DNA of 20,350 bases, taken from IMG/VR virus record IMGVR_UViG_3300037847_007581, positions 1-20,350 of that record; one strand, written 5' to 3'. The position numbers were made by a program, and so were the translations under genes. Position 1 is the stretch's first letter. Each line of letters starts with the position of its first letter. The notes beneath the pieces were generated by a model. It was not told where the DNA came from and ran no database searches. It was given only the letters and a program-made list of their open reading frames with translations. Source of the DNA: a virus. Positions 2,967 through 12,757 of the stretch are shown piece after piece.

Positions 2967-3398
2967 TTAAACCTTGTTGATCCGAATAATGTGGTCGGTC
3001 GAATCCCAGATAATCCGAAAATCGTTTCCAGCGGTCGCCGTCAACGTCCCACCGAAATCAATCACAAATAAAGGTATCTGGCCTAGCAGACTTGAATAAT
3101 TCATCACAAGGGCGTGCGTAGCGCTAATACCGCTGCCACTTGCAGTCCAAACCACGTCATCTGCATCCAAAGTACCGTCGTCTGTACTAACAATGCCCGA
3201 TGATGTGTTTTGTAGAAATGCCCCACCTTGGGTGTACCCGTTAGCTGTGGATAGCTCCGTAAACGTCATTCCGCTTAGCGTGGTGTCTGCAGCGTTAAAA
3301 GTCAATGCTGAGCACAGCTGTACCGCAGTGTCAAAGGCTTGGGCACTACCAAAAGCCAATACTGACGCCGTATGGTTATAGACGCTGACTGTGGCCAT
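2967..3398 (-). CDS. Probable small virion protein, 143 residues
   Basis: This complete ORF has its ATG at 3398 and its stop three bases before the next ATG. The protein begins MATVSVYNHTASVLAFGSAQ and is rich in A, T, S and G with regular short hydrophobic strands. It contains TFNAADTTLSGMTF, DGTLDADDVVWTASGSGIS and FVIDFGGTLTATAGNDFRI, a composition typical of beta-structured phage fibre or decoration proteins. No motif gives a precise family. It is separated by 22 bases from the tail-tip gene and shares its direction. I assign it to the tail-tip module on position, with the exact role unknown. Confidence 0.75.
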   Translation of the reverse strand: MATVSVYNHTASVLAFGSAQAFDTAVQLCSALTFNAADTTLSGMTFTELSTANGYTQGGAFLQNTSSGIVSTDDGTLDADDVVWTASGSGISATHALVMNYSSLLGQIPLFVIDFGGTLTATAGNDFRIIWDSTDHIIRINKV

Positions 3399-5661: not shown

Positions 5662-6392
5662 CGCACCTGGCCGAGGGTGACAGACACAGTGTAAATATCA
5701 CTCCTAGCACCACTCACAATTCGAGCTTCTGCAGAGGCAGTAGGCGCACTAATTGGGAAGTAAGTACCAACCGCTGGGACGCTGGCAATCGTTGTTTCGT
5801 ACCAGCTCTGGATTGCAGTCCAGCCTGCTGAATCGGTTTCGCCTTCGACGTTGCGGATCTTGGTAGCGGTAAGTGGGCCGGTTATGTAACTGACCCCTGT
5901 AGTAGTTAGAGCCATTGATGGCGTGTCCTGGTAAGTCTCCATTGGACGAAGAAGATCCAGGGTTGTCGTTCCAAGCGTGACGGTGCCGAAGTAGAAACGG
6001 TTGGATTTGTTGATGCGGTTGCTGTTGCGGAGAACTTCAAGCGCCTGTGCAGCATCAACAAGCAGAACGCTGGCTTGTATGTAGTTTCCGGCTTGCTCGC
6101 CCTGTGGGGGTTCGGCGAACCAGCACGCAATACCGGCCCAGGTAACACCGTTAGCCGCACCGCTGTAGCTGACGGTTGTGCCGATACTGCCGCTGCTCAG
6201 TGTGTCTGGGTCGAGGATGCGTGCGTTGCGCCAGGTGTCGTAAACGCTCAGCAGGGATTGCCATTGCGTGCTGCTCAATAGGCCGCTAATCCGCCAGGTT
6301 CTTGCGGTCAGACCTTGACGACCTTCGCCTTCGTACCCAAGGGGTTGGGCCAGCAGGGTGGTGCAAGTAAACGCGCCGATGGAGAAAGTCAT
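5658..6392 (-). CDS. Distal tail-like protein, 244 residues
   Basis: ATG at 6392 shares one base with the tape measure stop (TAATG), and the gene's own stop overlaps the next ATG. The three genes therefore form a coupled block. The protein starts MTFSIGAFTCTTLLAQPLGYEGEGRQGLTA, followed by TWRISGLLSSTQWQSLLSVYDTWRNARI, a layout I associate with distal tail proteins that sit between tube and tip. The remainder is beta-rich with few charged residues. In siphophages the gene immediately after the tape measure normally encodes the distal tail protein (Dit), and the size fits. The assignment rests on position more than on sequence motifs. Confidence 0.8.
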   Translation of the reverse strand: MTFSIGAFTCTTLLAQPLGYEGEGRQGLTARTWRISGLLSSTQWQSLLSVYDTWRNARILDPDTLSSGSIGTTVSYSGAANGVTWAGIACWFAEPPQGEQAGNYIQASVLLVDAAQALEVLRNSNRINKSNRFYFGTVTLGTTTLDLLRPMETYQDTPSMALTTTGVSYITGPLTATKIRNVEGETDSAGWTAIQSWYETTIASVPAVGTYFPISAPTASAEARIVSGARSDIYTVSVTLGQVR

Positions 6393-9019
6393 TAGGAACC
6401 TCGGTTGATAGCGCCGACTGTGCTTGTAGAAACGGCTGCTTGGCCTGAAACAAAGACGTTTACAGGCTCTTTAGCTGCTAGAGCTTGCTGTGCAGCTGTA
6501 TTCTCCCGAATTGCTTGCTGCAGTTCATCTTCGGCTTGGTTGAAGCTTTCGACGAAGTTGGCTACCGCAAAGAGACGTTCCGGGGTTGAAATATCAACGC
6601 CGCCGCGCAGCAATCCACGCCGCTCACCAGAAGCGATGGATGCCCTGGCTCGTGCCAGCTCTTGCTCACGGAATTGCGGGGAGAGGAACTCGAAACCTCC
6701 GCGCAGAACACTCGAAATTGACTGCTGGGCTCCTTTTAGACGTTCAGCAGCGGTCGTGGCGTTACGCACCAGGGCTGCTCCGCCTTCTTGATAGGCAGTC
6801 AGAACATTTGCGTTTGCCGCTTCAACGCTCTGAACTAAGGCATCAATACGGTTTGTGTCTCGCTCCGGTGGAGGCTTAGCTAGTTCAGCGTTCAGCTGGT
6901 TCTGCGCTTCTTTTAGGTCTCTAATTTTCTCCTCTTGCTTAACTCTGTTCTGAATTGTGATGGCCAGTGTTTTTTGGCCGTTGGCTTCAGCTACAGCAAC
7001 CTTTTCAGCTGCTTCACCGCGTGCTTTTATGCCTGCAATAGCAGAAGCTGCTTGACGACGTTCCCTGTTCTCGTTCTCAACTAATAAATCTTGCTTTGCT
7101 TTAATTTGTGCTGCCTCAAGATCAAAACGGTCTTTGATAGCCGCTTTTTCTATTTCAGTAGCGCTTCCGGACAATGCTTGCGTATCTTGCAGTTTCTGTA
7201 AAAGAGCAATACGTTTTTGAAGTCTTAAAGAAAGTTCTCTGTTATTTTGTATGTTTGAAATAGCTAAAGCCTTATTGAGTTTCTGTATTCGTTGAAAACG
7301 TTGGTTTGCTTCGTTTTGCTTTTCTTGGGCTCTTATTGCTTTTTGCTTGCTTTCTGCAATCTGTTCGTCAGTTGGTGTCCTATCAAAAACGGCTCCAGCA
7401 AGACCTCCTCTAGTTTCTATTAAGGCACGCGCAGGCGCAGCACCAGCTCCTCCAGTTGCAAGTCCTACACCAGCAACAACAATATTTTTTAAAGTGTCTT
7501 TTTCAGCTTTAAAGCGATCTCTTTCTCTTGGCTGGTCTCCTCCCGGGGCAGGCGCAAGTGCTCTGTTTAATATCTCTAAAAACTTATTGAGCGGGCCAGC
7601 GATGAAACCGCCGACTGTTACTGACAGTTGAGCAAAATTTCGGTTTAGTCGATCAAACGTGTCAGCAATGTTTGCTGCTTGTAAACCTCCAAAAGCAGTA
7701 GCAAGGTCTTTTTGAATAAGCGCGGATGCTTCAGCCGCTCTACCTGTGCTAATTAAAGCTTCGATCTGCTTTTCAAGAGAGCGTGATGAGATAAGACCTT
7801 CTTGGGAAAGCGTTTGAAAACTTTTTATTGGAGAATCAAAAGCCTTACTTAGAGTTTCAACTTTTCTGATAGAGGCATCAACTTGGGTGCCAAGAGCCGT
7901 TCCAGCGATGCTTAAGGCAAACCCGGCTTGACCTCCTGCCAAACCGCCGAGTAAACCGCCAAGTGCACCGCCGCCTGCAGCACCAACACCTTGACCGAAC
8001 AGAAGTGGGAAGCCGCCGCCGATTAACGCGGATGAAGCAATGTCGCGTCGACGCGCACGACGTTGTTCAAGACGCTGAGTAGCCCGTCTGGCCTCAGCAC
8101 GTCTTTCTCGGCGGAGTCTTGCACTTTCTCTTTCGGCCTGTTTTGTTCTTCTTTCTCGTTCTTTTAACCTTCTCTGATAGTTTCTATTGCCTTCTTTCAT
8201 CGCCTGATCCATCAGACGATTTTGATCCTCAATGTATTTTGGTGAACCTGGTGTATTCCTATCGCCTCTAATTGGAGAACGCGCTGCGTTCTTCAAGATT
8301 TCGTTCTGTTCTCTTTGCGTAATCCTTAGTTTTTCTTGTGCTTTTCTAACAGATAACGTAAGTTGCCTAGTAACCTGTTTAAAAGATCCAAACTGTCTTT
8401 TTGCTTGGGCTGTAGTTGCTCTTCCTAACTGCTCTCGTAACTTAGAAACATCTACACCCTGCTCTTCAAGCCTGGTAATTTTTTTGGCAAGGTCAAATCG
8501 CTTTTCTTGTGCTGCAATTATTGCGTTTAAATCTTCTCTTTGGCCGCCTTGGGCTACGGCGCGTGTGACAAACCTAGGGCTTCCGACCTCGCGCACACTT
8601 CCTGCAAGAGGAGCGCGACCCAGTCCTCTAGCGCTGAGTACAACAGACTTTTGGGCCTTGTCTGTTTTTTCTAGCGTTTTAAGAAGGTCTTTTGCCGTTC
8701 GGTTGTGGGCTCTTGCTGTTTCAAGACGGCCTTTATCTGTAGCTGCAGAAGCTCGTTTAACGGCAGATAAAGCCTCAGCTGTATTTAGCCCTTGTCCCTC
8801 TAATTTTCTGATTTGATCGCCTAAACGGCGAGTAATCGCCATTGTTGCAGCACGGCGATCTTCAAGTCTTTTCTTCGCTAACTCAGCACGATTACTGCTT
8901 GGAGTTCCTTTTGCAGTAACACCCTTGATTTTTTGGCGTGCTTCTTTAAGACCGGCGACTAGCGCAGTATCATCTACGTCGAGATAAAGTACGGCCTTGC
9001 CTAGATTCTGATCTGCCAC
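6392..9019 (-). CDS. Tail tape measure protein
   Basis: The 875-residue protein begins with GTG at 9019, preceded by AGGAAG ten bases upstream (9035-9030). Residues 1-320 are charged and helical. An arginine/glutamate-dense stretch (about 283-326) is followed by a glycine/alanine-rich hydrophobic segment at about 330-385 (GGGALGGLLGGLAGGQAGF), the usual position of a tape measure's membrane-active region. Residues about 550-770 are again a long coiled coil. This helix / hydrophobic patch / helix plan and its length identify a tape measure, which sets tail length and enters the host envelope on ejection. At the family rule of roughly 0.15 nm per residue the tail would be near 130 nm. No lysozyme or peptidase motif is obvious. 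Much of the gene is visibly more A+T-rich than its neighbours. Confidence 0.92.
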   Translation of the reverse strand: MADQNLGKAVLYLDVDDTALVAGLKEARQKIKGVTAKGTPSSNRAELAKKRLEDRRAATMAITRRLGDQIRKLEGQGLNTAEALSAVKRASAATDKGRLETARAHNRTAKDLLKTLEKTDKAQKSVVLSARGLGRAPLAGSVREVGSPRFVTRAVAQGGQREDLNAIIAAQEKRFDLAKKITRLEEQGVDVSKLREQLGRATTAQAKRQFGSFKQVTRQLTLSVRKAQEKLRITQREQNEILKNAARSPIRGDRNTPGSPKYIEDQNRLMDQAMKEGNRNYQRRLKERERRTKQAERESARLRRERRAEARRATQRLEQRRARRRDIASSALIGGGFPLLFGQGVGAAGGGALGGLLGGLAGGQAGFALSIAGTALGTQVDASIRKVETLSKAFDSPIKSFQTLSQEGLISSRSLEKQIEALISTGRAAEASALIQKDLATAFGGLQAANIADTFDRLNRNFAQLSVTVGGFIAGPLNKFLEILNRALAPAPGGDQPRERDRFKAEKDTLKNIVVAGVGLATGGAGAAPARALIETRGGLAGAVFDRTPTDEQIAESKQKAIRAQEKQNEANQRFQRIQKLNKALAISNIQNNRELSLRLQKRIALLQKLQDTQALSGSATEIEKAAIKDRFDLEAAQIKAKQDLLVENENRERRQAASAIAGIKARGEAAEKVAVAEANGQKTLAITIQNRVKQEEKIRDLKEAQNQLNAELAKPPPERDTNRIDALVQSVEAANANVLTAYQEGGAALVRNATTAAERLKGAQQSISSVLRGGFEFLSPQFREQELARARASIASGERRGLLRGGVDISTPERLFAVANFVESFNQAEDELQQAIRENTAAQQALAAKEPVNVFVSGQAAVSTSTVGAINRGS

Positions 9020-9029
9020 GTCAGCTAAG

Positions 9030-9080
9030 CTTCCTAGAGACCCGTCTACCCATATTAGGGTCCCTGTTGATCAAACCCAA
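9030..9080 (-). promoter_or_regulatory. Possible promoter and ribosome site for the tape measure operon
   Basis: On the minus strand TTGGGT (9080-9075) lies 17 bases before TAATAT (9057-9052). TAATAT is a good -10 element, whereas the -35 matches the sigma-70 consensus only partly. AGGAAG at 9035-9030 precedes the GTG start. A new promoter is needed here because the unit to the right ends at a terminator and the two intervening genes run the other way. The match is by eye only. Confidence 0.4.
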
Positions 9081-9090
9081 AGGGGATTAG

Positions 9091-9489
9091 ATGGCCTCCG
9101 CTCTTTCAGCCCTAAAGAACGCAACGATCACGTTCAACATTGCTGGAACTGGCACGGTTACCGATCCAGTGACTGGAAACGTCAGCGCGAAGACGACAAC
9201 TACGACGGTGGAGTTCTATCTGGTTGTTACTCAGACCAATTCAGAAAGTTTTCCGGGTGTTCAGGTCACTGACACCCTGTATGAGGGTTACGCCGTTGAT
9301 CCAAAAGTGCTGCCTTCAACCGTTGGCGTAGGCACAGAGGGGACTTTGGACTTCGCTGGAACGACAGGCATTGAGTGCGAAGTGCTGGAGGCTCGGATGC
9401 CGTATGGAACAACAGGCCTTCTTGGTAAGACGCTCCAGAACGTTTTGGGAGACCGAGTCAGAATTACGGCAAGGACGCAAACGTCATGA
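9091..9489 (+). CDS. Head-closure / neck-like protein, plus strand
   Basis: This 132-residue ORF starts at ATG 9091 behind a clear AAAGGGG Shine-Dalgarno five bases upstream, one of the better ribosome sites in the window. The sequence opens with MASALSALKNATITFNIAGTG and ends GLLGKTLQNVLGDRVRITART. It is beta-rich with no membrane segment, consistent with a head-closure or stopper protein at the head-tail joint. Its stop overlaps the start of the HK97-gp10-like gene (ATGA), and these neck genes usually travel together. It is unusual that the pair points opposite to every other structural gene here, sitting between tail tube and tape measure. The functional call is moderate, from size, neighbour and fold-like composition. 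Confidence 0.8.
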   Translation: MASALSALKNATITFNIAGTGTVTDPVTGNVSAKTTTTTVEFYLVVTQTNSESFPGVQVTDTLYEGYAVDPKVLPSTVGVGTEGTLDFAGTTGIECEVLEARMPYGTTGLLGKTLQNVLGDRVRITARTQTS

Positions 9490-9935
9490 CCAAAACAAAA
9501 GTAACAGAGTGGAATGCCAAAGCTCTTTTAGCTAAAAGCGCTGTTGCGCTTCGAGAGTTCTCTCAACAAGTGAAAGTCGAGTCGGATAACCAAGTTAAAA
9601 AAGTTCAGTACCCGTGGCCTGTTTCAACAAAGCGTAAAAACGGCAAGTTGGTCAAAAGAGGTAAGCGGGACATTGTCGATACTGGGTTTTTGCTGAATTC
9701 GGCTTCCGCACCAAAGGTGTTTAAAACTAAAACCGGCGCGGCTTTAACGATTACTTGGAACGCCCCTTACTCTTTGGAGGTTGCGTTGGGCGGTTACACG
9801 CTTCGGCAAGGACGAAGTGACGAGTACACAGCTCCCAGCAGGAATTACGTGCTGAAGACGTATCGAGAAATGCGGAGCGATGGGAGCATCCCGTTTGCGG
9901 AGTTTTTCGCTAATAGCTGGAAAAACGTCAAATAA
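9486..9935 (+). CDS. HK97 gp10-like neck / tail completion protein, plus strand
   Basis: ATG at 9486 overlaps the upstream stop by four bases. The 149-residue protein has a helical N-terminus (MTKTKVTEWNAKALLAKSAVALREFSQQV) and a basic middle with YPWPVSTKRKNGK. It continues with DTGFLLNSASAPKVF, WNAPYSLEVALGGYTLR and a C-terminal YTAPSRNYVLKTYREM. A DTGxLxxS segment, then an xAPYxxxVxxG segment, then a proline/arginine-containing C-terminus is the usual plan of HK97-gp10-like proteins, which complete the neck between head and tail. The gene stops immediately before the stem of a terminator that serves the opposing tail tube gene. Orientation opposite to the other virion genes is the notable feature. 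Confidence 0.82.
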   Translation: MTKTKVTEWNAKALLAKSAVALREFSQQVKVESDNQVKKVQYPWPVSTKRKNGKLVKRGKRDIVDTGFLLNSASAPKVFKTKTGAALTITWNAPYSLEVALGGYTLRQGRSDEYTAPSRNYVLKTYREMRSDGSIPFAEFFANSWKNVK

Positions 9936-9959
9936 AAACCCCCGGTGGTGGCCGGGGGT
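9934..9959 (-). terminator. Intrinsic terminator of the tail tube unit
   Basis: The stem ACCCCCGG (9938-9945) pairs with CCGGGGGT (9952-9959) around a six-base loop. On the minus strand the stem is followed by a run of five T. It lies 22 bases after the tail tube stop. In the plus direction no T run follows, so termination of the neck genes here would be weak. Confidence 0.85.
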
Positions 9960-9981: not shown

Positions 9982-10458
9982 TCAGTCGGTCTCTGCACTC
10001 CAGGTGTAGGCGCCGTAGCCGCTGAGGGTGAAGCTCACGGTGGCGACGTTGCCGGCTTCGATTGCTTCGGAGAAGTCAGTCACGAAGGCAACCCCGGAGT
10101 GATATTCCGGATCACCTGCGGCGGTCATCTCGGGAGATTCCCGATACCACTCGACGGTTGTACCAGAAGCGGAGTTGAGGGCGGCGTTCTTGAGAACCGC
10201 ATAACCTGCGTCTCTCAGGTTCAGGTTCATCGTGCAGGGGATGTTGTAGCTCTGGGTCGTCACCAGAGAAGCGGTGAAGCCCAGGGTGCTGCCGTAATCC
10301 TGTACTTCCTGAGTCTCAGAAGTGCCCTGGATTCCTGCGTTGGTGAGTGACAGCACCTCGGTCATGCCCGTGGTAGCCGTCGGGTTGGTGCTTGCGGTCG
10401 TACCAGCCTTCACGTAAAAGCGGTAACCGAGACTGTTGAAAAATGCGCCGGTAGCCAT
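9982..10458 (-). CDS. Major tail tube protein
   Basis: The 158-residue protein begins MATGAFFNSLGYRFYVKAG at ATG 10458, with no Shine-Dalgarno visible. It contains TEVLSLTNAGIQGTSETQEV followed by QDYGSTLGFTASLVTTQSYN, which suits the beta-sandwich of a tail tube subunit. The C-terminal FSEAIEAGNVATVSFTLSGYG segment (about 130-150) resembles the conserved end of siphophage tube proteins, where it reads roughly F-x-E-x-G-x-x-x-T-x-S-F-T-L-x-G. The gene has its own downstream terminator, as expected for a protein needed in large amounts, and follows the head-tail adaptor as in many siphophages. Confidence in the role is good though not absolute. Confidence 0.85.
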   Translation of the reverse strand: MATGAFFNSLGYRFYVKAGTTASTNPTATTGMTEVLSLTNAGIQGTSETQEVQDYGSTLGFTASLVTTQSYNIPCTMNLNLRDAGYAVLKNAALNSASGTTVEWYRESPEMTAAGDPEYHSGVAFVTDFSEAIEAGNVATVSFTLSGYGAYTWSAETD

Positions 10459-10482
10459 TAGAAGAGAAGCAGAGGGTCTTAT

Positions 10483-10511
10483 TTCTTACAGCTTAAATCA
10501 GCTAATAAGAA
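10483..10511. repeat. Imperfect inverted repeat before the tail tube gene
   Basis: TTCTTA (10483-10488) and AGCT (10490-10493) pair with AGCT (10500-10503) and TAAGAA (10506-10511), giving a ten-pair stem with a one/two-base bulge and a six-base loop. It sits in the 94-base gap between the adaptor stop and the tail tube start. It could be a leader hairpin, an RNA processing site or an operator. No T run follows on the minus strand, so a terminator is less likely. Confidence 0.5.
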
Positions 10512-10552
10512 ACAAAAGAAGGCTGGTTGCCACTAAACGGATTCTAGCGATG

Positions 10553-11116
10553 TCAGTTTCGCTTGACCCTAAAAACTCCACCAAGAGCACTTGCAGTGCT
10601 TGTGGTTAGGCAACCGAGGATGGTTGCAAGATGGGGTAGCACTGTAAGAGGTGTGACAGGCTTTGTTGTCGAGCTGGAAATGTTGTCGCGCCACTCGATT
10701 TCCATTACGTCGAGTTTGAGGCGGCTCAGGTCACGGTTGGGAATGCCGTCAACTAGGGCTGTGGTTGTGCTGGCGTTTTGCAGCAGCGTTGGGGTTGTGA
10801 TTAGTGCGTTGGCAAGCTCGAATGTCGCCAGCTTGACTTCATCTGGGATTTCAGTCTTCGTATAGCTTTTGTCGCCGCACTTTGCATTTTCGCGGGGCCA
10901 GCTCAGTGCTTGGGTTGTTGCGGCGCGAGTGCCGATGTATTCGAGAGTCTCTAGGCCGTTTGTGGCCATCACTAAAGAGCGGGCTTTGTCGTCTGCGCTT
11001 GCGCTGCTCCAAGCAAGCGTGCCAAGTCGGGCGTCTGCAAAAGTGTCGCCTTCTGCAGCCGTAATGAAGCTGTTGGCGTTAGTTGCACCAGCTGTAGCGA
11101 CAATAGTCGGTGCCAT
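10553..11116 (-). CDS. Head-tail adaptor, DnaT-like phage family
   Basis: The 187-residue protein begins MAPTIVATAGATNANSFITA and continues with AEGDTFADARLGTLAWSSAS, DKARSLVMATNGLETLEYIG, ALSWPRENAKCG and IPDEVKLATFELANALI. This succession (NANSxxTxAEGDxxFxDR, ALxWPR, IPxEVKxATxELA) is the hallmark of the phage adaptor family often annotated as DnaT-like ssDNA-binding protein, helical proteins that attach beneath the portal. The C-terminus is more variable. It starts 12 bases after the small 63-residue gene and ends 94 bases before the tail tube gene. The adaptor role follows from family and gene order; the DnaT label should not be taken as evidence of replication function. Confidence 0.85.
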   Translation of the reverse strand: MAPTIVATAGATNANSFITAAEGDTFADARLGTLAWSSASADDKARSLVMATNGLETLEYIGTRAATTQALSWPRENAKCGDKSYTKTEIPDEVKLATFELANALITTPTLLQNASTTTALVDGIPNRDLSRLKLDVMEIEWRDNISSSTTKPVTPLTVLPHLATILGCLTTSTASALGGVFRVKRN

Positions 11117-11127
11117 CGCTGCCTATT

Positions 11128-11319
11128 TTAGTACCGTCTTTTTTGCAGCTTAGCTCGGCCAGCTTTTCGTACTGGACGGATTGGGTCCATTACTGCTGCG
11201 TGATAAACCTCAACACCTTTTATCTCTAATCCGGCTTTCGTTTCCAAGTGCTCGCCGTATGGAACGTCGACAAAGCTGCGGTGATTATTGTGTGAGATGT
11301 AAAGTCGCACCAGTTTCAT
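11128..11319 (-). CDS. Small basic hypothetical protein, 63 residues
   Basis: I choose ATG 11319, which gives MKLVRLYISHNNHRSFVDVP and a C-terminus rich in arginine and lysine (VRKAGRAKLQKRRY). A longer frame continues upstream, but its extra 47 codons are low in hydrophobic pattern and lie wholly antisense to the 91-residue plus-strand gene, so I leave them out. The ribosome site is weak: AGGAAG lies 13 bases upstream. The middle (GLEIKGVEVYHAAVMDPIRP) looks beta-like. Placed between capsid and adaptor genes, it may be a head accessory protein. Its start codon overlaps the divergent start of the neighbouring gene in the sequence CATG. I recognise no family. Confidence 0.6.
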   Translation of the reverse strand: MKLVRLYISHNNHRSFVDVPYGEHLETKAGLEIKGVEVYHAAVMDPIRPVRKAGRAKLQKRRY

Positions 11320-11593
11320 GCCTGAGTGTCCGCTTCCTAGCTCTGAACCCAAAGTAAAGAGAAAGCCGGCTGATCCGTCAGCACCCGGTAAAAAGATTCG
11401 CAAACTCGAAGACGTGGCGATTGCTATTCGTCGTTTGCGGGAAGAAGAGGGTCTGGACAATCAACAGATCAACGAAAAGCTCAAAGTCAGCTTTGACGTC
11501 ATCAATCAACTGTTTTTGCAGTCGTACAAGATGACCATGAACACTAAAGAGGTGTTTGAGGCGCAAGAAAAAATCAGGCTTGACATGGTCTGA
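11318..11593 (+). CDS. Small protein with possible helix-turn-helix, plus strand
   Basis: This 91-residue ORF runs from ATG 11318 to TGA 11591-11593 and is followed within four bases by a two-way terminator. Residues 1-25 are proline/lysine-rich and probably disordered. Residues 29-75 are helical, with KLEDVAIAIRRLREEEGLDN then QQINEKLKVSFDVINQLFLQ. That spacing fits a helix-turn-helix in which a recognition helix follows the LDNQQI turn. The protein could be a small DNA-binding regulator or a virion-associated helical protein. No Shine-Dalgarno is visible, and its promoter would have to lie inside the opposing gene. It converges on the capsid gene and shares CATG with the divergent 63-residue gene. 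The family is not recognised; the ORF is likely real because of its composition and the terminator at its end. Confidence 0.7.
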   Translation: MPECPLPSSEPKVKRKPADPSAPGKKIRKLEDVAIAIRRLREEEGLDNQQINEKLKVSFDVINQLFLQSYKMTMNTKEVFEAQEKIRLDMV

Positions 11594-11596
11594 GCA

Positions 11597-11635
11597 ATAA
11601 AAAAGGCCCCCGTAGTTGGGGGCCTTCGCTTTTGT
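11597..11635. terminator. Strong bidirectional terminator between capsid gene and 91-residue gene
   Basis: AAGGCCCCC (11603-11611) pairs with GGGGGCCTT (11618-11626) around the six-base loop GTAGTT. On the minus strand the stem runs into at least six T, directly after the capsid gene stop at 11645. On the plus strand it is followed by CGCTTTT, so it can also end the convergent gene. This is the clearest terminator in the window. Confidence 0.93.
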
Positions 11636-11644
11636 CCCGAAGGA

Positions 11645-12757
11645 TCAATAAGCGGTGGTATCGAACGGGGTGTTGACCAGCAGACGTGCGATGGGCACCT
11701 GCTTGGTGCTGCTGAACACCAGGTTCCAGCTGGCGGTATCGGCCAGGTTGCCGGTGGTTGCAGCGTTGGTGGGGTTGTCGCCAGAGGCGGCCCACTTGGT
11801 GCCGGTGATGTGGTAACCGTAGTGGTAGTCCACAGCCAAGACATCCTGCATGGAGAGGATGTTGCGGTCGGCAGCAACGCGCAGGTCCTGTTGGACGCCC
11901 TCGGAGACGACGCCAGACTTGAACAGGTAGACGGGATACTTCACCGCGTGGGTGGAAGTACCGCCGGTCAGGTAGGTCAGCTGGTCGTCGATCACGACGC
12001 GCAGGCCAGCGAAGAAGGGAACTTCGGCGGCAGTTACGCCAACACCGCCACCACCCCAGGTCACAGCGCCGGAAGCGGCGAGTGCAGAGGTGCTGAAGGT
12101 CAGCATTCCAACCTGTTGCAGGTAGTAAGCAACGTTGGAGTGCATGGCGATGGAGTCAAGCTCATCACCCTTTTCGCCCAGCACAGACTTGGCTGCAACC
12201 ACGTTGCCAACGTTGATGTAGTTGGCTTCGGTGACGGCAGAAGGAGCGCCAGCACGGCTCTTGTCGGTCTGGTTAGCACCCAGCACACCAGCTGCAGAGA
12301 TGCCGCCGAACAGACCCAGCAGTTGGGCGCTCAGGGTGGCAGTCTTCAGCTTGTTGATGGAGGCAGTCAGCTGGTTGCGGACGTGGCTGAGGGGATCAGC
12401 ACCGGTTCCGAGCTTGCTGAGGTCGTCAGCGGCGTAGCTGAAGCCACGGTGCAGCAGAGTCATGATCTGCTCGTCGGCAGTCACGTTCTGAGGCACCAGG
12501 TAGCCGCCACCGCCACCCCAGGTGTTGTTGCTCAGGATCTGAGTCTCGGTGGGAGCAATCGGATCGAAGAAAGGCACGCGAACGCGGGTGCCGCCGGCAC
12601 GGGCGTCGAGGGCTGCGTTGCGCTGCACAATGCCGCTTTGGACCCACTTCGATTGCTCGAAGATGCCCTCGGCGGTGTACTCAAGAAATTCTGGACGGGC
12701 GACCAGGTTCGACAGGAAGGTCGAGCCTGATCCGTAGTTTCCGGCGAAGGAAGACAT
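11645..12757 (-). CDS. Major capsid protein
   Basis: The 370-residue protein starts at ATG 12757 behind AGGAG seven bases upstream, a strong ribosome site suited to an abundant product. Key segments are residues 1-50 (an extended N-terminus with FAGNYGSGSTFLSNLVARPE), GTRVRVPFFDP (about 56-66) and a glycine run at 81-85. Also present are DSIAMHSNVAYYLQQVG (201-217) and VPFFAGLRVVIDDQL (246-260). The pattern of a D-x-I-x-M-H-S motif before a 'VPxFxGxRVVxDD' strand is characteristic of an HK97-fold coat protein family. It is flanked by a scaffold-like gene and a strong terminator. No long N-terminal delta domain is apparent, which agrees with a separate scaffold. Confidence 0.93.
   Translation of the reverse strand: MSSFAGNYGSGSTFLSNLVARPEFLEYTAEGIFEQSKWVQSGIVQRNAALDARAGGTRVRVPFFDPIAPTETQILSNNTWGGGGGYLVPQNVTADEQIMTLLHRGFSYAADDLSKLGTGADPLSHVRNQLTASINKLKTATLSAQLLGLFGGISAAGVLGANQTDKSRAGAPSAVTEANYINVGNVVAAKSVLGEKGDELDSIAMHSNVAYYLQQVGMLTFSTSALAASGAVTWGGGGVGVTAAEVPFFAGLRVVIDDQLTYLTGGTSTHAVKYPVYLFKSGVVSEGVQQDLRVAADRNILSMQDVLAVDYHYGYHITGTKWAASGDNPTNAATTGNLADTASWNLVFSSTKQVPIARLLVNTPFDTTAY

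Follow-up and report, generated by a model that had tools for sequence, protein, structure and literature searches.

In a DNA of 20,350 bases (hereafter the window, a fragment held as a linear IMG/VR virus record), two overlapping genes predicted to encode neck proteins, hc and gp10, lie on the plus strand between the minus-strand genes for the tail tube and the tape measure protein. The inverted pair is real, conserved and unusual, in a neck module of otherwise known kind, and it characterizes the lineage: every relative examined has it, and it is not private to the window's phage. Neck gene order serves siphophage classification and gene calling, and tools that expect collinear neck genes would miss the inverted pair, which is a fixed exception in at least 75 distinct viruses.

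Gene organization of the window

The minus strand of the window carries the genes for terminase, portal, scaffold, major capsid protein (MCP), adaptor (Ad1), tail tube, tape measure protein (TMP) and distal tail proteins. The features surrounding the inverted pair are listed below.

6392-9019, minus strand: tape measure protein, 875 aa (position, length, family profile)
9020-9090, no strand: divergent hc/tape measure spacer (sequence, compared with relatives)
9079-9085, plus strand: putative hc ribosome-binding site, AAAGGGG (sequence)
9091-9489, plus strand: hc, predicted head-closure (stopper, Hc1-like) protein, 132 aa (fold and profile matches)
9486-9489, plus strand: ATGA stop/start overlap, coupling hc and gp10 (sequence)
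9486-9935, plus strand: gp10, most likely a tail completion protein (HK97-gp10/SPP1 gp16.1-like, Ne1), 149 aa (remote homology)
9938-9959, minus strand: predicted intrinsic terminator of the tube transcript, ACCCCCGG..CCGGGGGT then TTTTATTT (hairpin and T run)
9982-10458, minus strand: tail tube protein (PHROG_1407, major tail protein, E 4e-11)
10553-11116, minus strand: head-tail adaptor Ad1, the canonical upstream neighbour of Hc1 (PHROG_477, E 2e-28)
11318-11593, plus strand: small HTH-like protein, 91 aa, the second inverted gene (weak HTH_19 match)
11602-11627, no strand: bidirectional-looking terminator at the convergent MCP/HTH junction (hairpin prediction)

A preliminary description of this DNA had placed the ATGA-coupled plus-strand genes between the minus-strand tube and tape measure genes, with the tube terminator at their 3' end; the ORFs at 9091-9489 and 9486-9935, and the hairpin and T run at 9938-9959 in the tube direction, confirm both points. 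The AAAGGGG sequence is 5 nt from the hc ATG. The tape measure ORF has no library match of its own, and the family profile built from it gives weak matches (E 1e-4) to the proteins annotated as tape measures in KBS-S-2A and S-2L. The gene for the HTH-like protein is inverted within the late block in the same style as hc-gp10, and its inverted position between MCP and Ad1 is kept in part of the relatives.

Three minor features of the window may be added. It is apparently mosaic over 9982-12757, where the tube gene is nearest to one group of relatives (L002 group, 89%) and the capsid gene to another (L014 group, 65%). The family of the minus-strand gene at 1-570, through its members L004 and L018, has a weak match (E 0.002) to S-CBS2 gp15. 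In S-CBS2, gp15 directly follows the neck pair, and the gene at 1-570 possibly encodes a tail assembly chaperone that was relocated as well. The adjacent minus-strand genes at 2562-2963 and 2967-3398 both match PHROG_644 (unknown function) and are perhaps a tandem duplication.

Identity of the hc and gp10 proteins

The AlphaFold2 model of hc, computed from 32 aligned relatives, has a pLDDT of 90, and its matches in the PDB are almost all phage neck stoppers, with Z values of 6.4 to 8.3. These include proteins of GTA (6tba, Z 8.3) and Pam3 (8hdr, Z 8.2), the T1 stopper (9l0e, Z 7.7) and, lower down, the SPP1 connector (7z4w, Z 6.4) and the lambda neck (8k37, Z 6.4). Z values of 6-8 are middling by themselves; the list of matches is strikingly uniform. 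The hc profile matches S-CBS2 gp13 (E 2e-4, the sole scorer among seven candidates), and comparison with PHROG and Pfam gave PHROG_34238 (unknown function), one weak match to a head-tail connector and nothing else. hc predicts as a head-closure (stopper) fold, and its earlier assignment as a head-closure protein is borne out by the modelled structure.

The model of gp10 is of moderate confidence (pLDDT 77). Foldseek gave no significant match for it, and a second structural aligner retrieved the SaPI1 tail completion protein (9mu2_P) at Z 7.1, the next match being at Z 3.7. At the sequence level, the gp10 profile matches Ne1 of KBS-S-2A (E 3e-4, again the sole scorer among seven candidates). 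The family profile finds S-CRES3 gp78 (E 1e-29) and S-CBS2 gp14 (E 1e-18), both of which are in its own iteration set, and the A2 profile, built without them, finds the same two proteins (E 2e-18 and 1e-10, respectively). PHROG_5 weakly matches single members of the gp10 family; PF04883 matches 2 of 27 members, also weakly (best E 0.093), with no match to the window gp10. gp10 is most likely a tail completion protein of the HK97-gp10/SPP1-gp16.1 type, although the evidence is weaker than for hc, and the preliminary label HK97-gp10-like stands in the sense of this remote homology. A studied member of the family, SPP1 gp16.1, aids tail-head joining and the correct routing of DNA (PMC11099176). 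Close homologues of hc and gp10 were absent from 50,697 phage records, and a PDB sequence search with the two profiles returned no match.

Conservation and origin of the inverted arrangement

Relatives were collected by a tube search (51 loci) and an hc-profile search (the best 80 of 227 candidates), with some contigs occurring in both. Loci in which gp10 and tube were both readable were counted, giving 125 including the window, at 76 distinct junctions. Among these tube-search loci and best 80 of 227 hc-profile candidates, the pair runs opposite to the tube, with tube and tape measure on either side, in 125 of 125, and is on the tube strand in none. In most relatives, hc and gp10 overlap by 1 or 4 bases. 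dN/dS of the pair, where close relatives were compared, is about 0.02-0.16, so the pair is under purifying selection and, as had been supposed, looks functional and not decayed; together with the shared gene order, this excludes recent decay and assembly error. As a single 20-kb metagenomic contig for which no near-identical relative has been shown, the window might by itself have carried a private inversion or been an assembly chimera; the gene order that it shares with 75 further distinct junctions, from many metagenomes, refutes this, and the probability is practically nil.

The usual order of a Virfam Type 1 neck is Ad1-Hc1-x-Tc1 (PMC4362835), and relative to it the pair is both displaced and inverted, much as the preliminary description had it. 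The collinear, one-strand order was found at none of the readable loci, in all of which the pair is inverted and downstream of the tube. The two-gene inversion and relocation first suspected in one contig is therefore lineage-wide, the relatives carrying the same families in the same place. In the open-access literature, no earlier case of oppositely oriented neck genes was found. The window resembles Type 1 modules (Ad1-Hc1-Ne1-Tc1, as in SPP1 gp15-gp16-gp16.1-gp17, HK97 and KBS-S-2A) in its Ad1 family, its predicted head-closure fold and its putative tail-completion family, and in having the last two genes adjacent and overlapping. In contrast to them, its lineage carries the pair on the opposite strand, downstream of the tube, and has no recognised Tc1/terminator gene between adaptor and tube; queries with the KBS, S-2L and S-CBS2 proteins revealed no Tc1 terminator gene beside the tube in the window or its relatives.

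In S-CBS2 (gp13-gp14) and S-CRES3 (gp77-gp78), the homologous pair is collinear, ATGA-coupled and upstream of the tube, and KBS-S-2A has the canonical order Hc1-Ne1-terminator-tube. S-CBS2 and S-CRES3 share with the window's lineage a homologous tail completion protein, tube and small sigma factor, and probably an hc homologue, but differ in the collinear, upstream position of the pair. Taken with the Virfam order, these three isolate genomes suggest the polarity of the change: the pair most likely changed place and strand in a phage ancestral to the window's lineage.

Terminators flanking the pair

Terminators in the tube direction were predicted at 61 of the 76 distinct junctions, against 5.3 in shuffles. 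Their position is conserved and their sequence is not, the hairpins differing between relatives. In the gp10 direction, they were predicted at 9 of the 76 junctions (3.2 in shuffles), so that most relatives have no detected terminator after gp10 in its own direction.

Cargo genes of lambdoid phages are inverted and bracketed by a terminator and a promoter. The hc-gp10 pair, likewise inverted and bracketed by a terminator and promoter-like DNA, might be moron-like cargo of this kind, expressed from its own promoter and terminator outside the late programme and encoding non-virion proteins. Such a role is very improbable, since hc and gp10 fall in the stopper and tail-completion families, their S-CBS2 homologues are annotated as structural proteins, the pair is present in every relative examined, and no other Hc or tail completion gene was found in the window.

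A conserved motif before late genes

In the relatives, the regions upstream of hc have in common a palindrome-like element composed of two outward copies of GGMAACYTAG. This motif has 122 matches (70 non-redundant loci), of which 107 are intergenic, though intergenic sequence makes up 3.9%; 92 of the 122 lie no more than 60 nt ahead of a start on the same strand, most often at a distance of 18-24 nt. Thirty letter-permuted patterns, a control in which the relatedness among loci persists, gave means of 4.4 matches and 0.37 upstream. The motif precedes the tube gene in 59 of 66 cases, ad1 in 43 of 59, TMP in 39 of 57 and hc in 34 of 65, and was seen in the relatives before none of 66 gp10, 61 sigma and 41 MCP genes. 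Of 68 regions upstream of hc, 47 contain both outward half-sites (0.01 in shuffles). In divergent spacers the half-sites are two separate outward copies, 0-10 nt apart, and a second divergent spacer of the relatives, between HTH and Ad1, has the same pair. A slightly looser form of the motif matches nine times on a 42-kb contig (G001), always in intergenic sequence. Similar sites on this contig (L139-L141) occur about 19-34 nt before further genes outside the head-neck-tail block. The motif is not recognisable in the window, where the hc/TMP spacer reads CCCATATTAGGG (9049-9060), and sigma-70 type promoters near the pair are no more numerous there than in shuffles.

It had been suggested that the neck genes have a promoter of their own and a timing separate from that of the tail. 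The promoter is likely, because the predicted terminator cuts the tube transcript before the pair and a promoter-like element precedes hc in the relatives. Separate timing found no support: in the relatives, the hc element is of the same class as those of adaptor, tube and tape measure, and stands back-to-back with that of the tape measure. While strand and terminator imply a separate transcription unit, a single motif class before tube, adaptor, tape measure and hc in the relatives makes separate timing of neck and tail quite improbable.

Bacterial bidirectional promoters consist of pseudo-symmetrical DNA (PMC12825309, PMC10268837). The hc/TMP spacer of the relatives is like them in having a symmetrical element within a short divergent spacer, and unlike them in having two separate outward half-sites of a phage-specific motif. 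On symmetry and position, the paired half-sites resemble a bidirectional late promoter, and the two-way regulatory site common to the pair and the tape measure in the relatives is probably a promoter.

The element could instead be an operator, that is, the site of a regulator such as an HTH protein, or an mRNA leader element, with hc-gp10 expressed from an unrecognised promoter. It is near-palindromic in the divergent spacers, it has no -35 block, and in 45 of 57 cases its hc-side half-site all but reaches the ATG. The distance from the end of that half-site to the ATG is usually 3-5 nt, compared with 18-24 nt at other genes, so that the hc transcript would be leaderless or odd if the half-site acts as a promoter. 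Against an operator, single half-sites stand before ad1 and tube, where nothing diverges, and the motif also occurs in relatives in which no HTH gene was detected. The third base of the motif is always C on the TMP side and G (29), A (19) or C (9) on the hc side, with no compensating change in the other arm, which makes an RNA stem unlikely. The RNA-hairpin reading of the palindrome was rejected for this lack of covariation. Overall, we regard an operator or leader element as rather unlikely and a promoter as the preferred reading.

A small sigma factor in the relatives

Between adaptor and tube, the relatives carry a gene for a small sigma factor (e.g., L021:9425-9973). Region 2 is present (PF04542, Sigma70_r2, E 2.7e-5 in L021), the protein aligns with solved sigma factors of the PDB over regions 2-3 only, and region 4 was not found. 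A factor of regions 2-3 would not be expected to contact a -35 block, which fits the single-block element. The adaptor-tube gap is at least 543 bases in all 111 of the relatives' loci with both ends readable, compared with 95 bases in the window, where the small sigma gene is absent from this slot and from the rest of the 20 kb. In S-CBS2, the small sigma gene adjoins terL, a different position from that in the window's relatives.

Of 9 records checked, 6 have both motif and small sigma, S-CBS2 and S-CRES3 among them, whereas S-2L and KBS-S-2A have neither. One record (L041) has the motif twice, but its sole sigma is full-length, so the link between factor and motif is not perfect. A full-length sigma factor is also found in 12 of 12 larger contigs. 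The small sigma is a candidate reader of GGMAACYTAG, and the full-length sigma or a host sigma may be the reader instead.

The T4 late box is TATAAATA, which GGMAACYTAG does not resemble. The T4 and relatives' systems are alike in having a small phage sigma without region 4 and a single-block element, promoter-like in the relatives, before late genes, although the relatives' factor has regions 2-3. T4 gp55 is related to sigma domain 2, and T4 late promoters have no -35 element (PMC2988020).

Proposed transcription of the pair

We propose that hc-gp10 is a working neck unit that originally lay upstream of the tube, was transferred to its present site between tube and tape measure, inverted, and kept since, and that it forms a small, separate unit of late transcription. 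Leftward transcription of the tube would end at the terminator just before gp10, and in the divergent spacer the tape measure would restart leftward and hc-gp10 start rightward. In the relatives, the back-to-back GGMAACYTAG copies would let the pair and the tape measure fire together from one bidirectional late promoter, read by the small sigma. The arrangement may be of benefit in that a protein required at about 6-12 copies per virion no longer depends on the high-output transcript of the tube.

Taken as a whole (relocated neck unit, own late unit, bidirectional promoter and small sigma as reader), the scheme appears reasonably likely. It is built on the observed gene order and its fixation, the hc fold, the terminators, the placement of the motif and its co-presence with the small sigma; promoter function, recognition of the motif by the sigma factor, timing and dosage are what we infer from these. 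The promoter part draws on the relatives, as both the motif and the small sigma gene are missing from the window. The broadest reading, towards which we are somewhat less than evenly inclined, is of a large uncultured phage group with its own late system, in which a sigma lacking region 4, encoded in the virion gene block, would read the single-block GGMAACYTAG, and paired copies would act as bidirectional promoters driving the neck unit against the tail operon and setting its dosage. With the promoter-like motif and the candidate sigma, the control of late genes in siphophages of the cyanobacterial type can be tested directly.

Host and lifestyle

The host of the phage group is probably cyanobacterial, judging from the closest isolates. 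A host or prophage was sought in two scans of the GTDB genomes, which gave nothing beyond a 36% match and a contig of 3.3 kb binned as Rhodoferax; neither is usable as host evidence. In two loci of one contig (L052 and L085), the capsid, sigma, tube and tape measure genes are split into overlapping frames, probably by sequencing errors. An integrase gene is present in 5 of the 12 larger contigs (G001, G002, G004, G007 and G011), and part of the phage group may be temperate.
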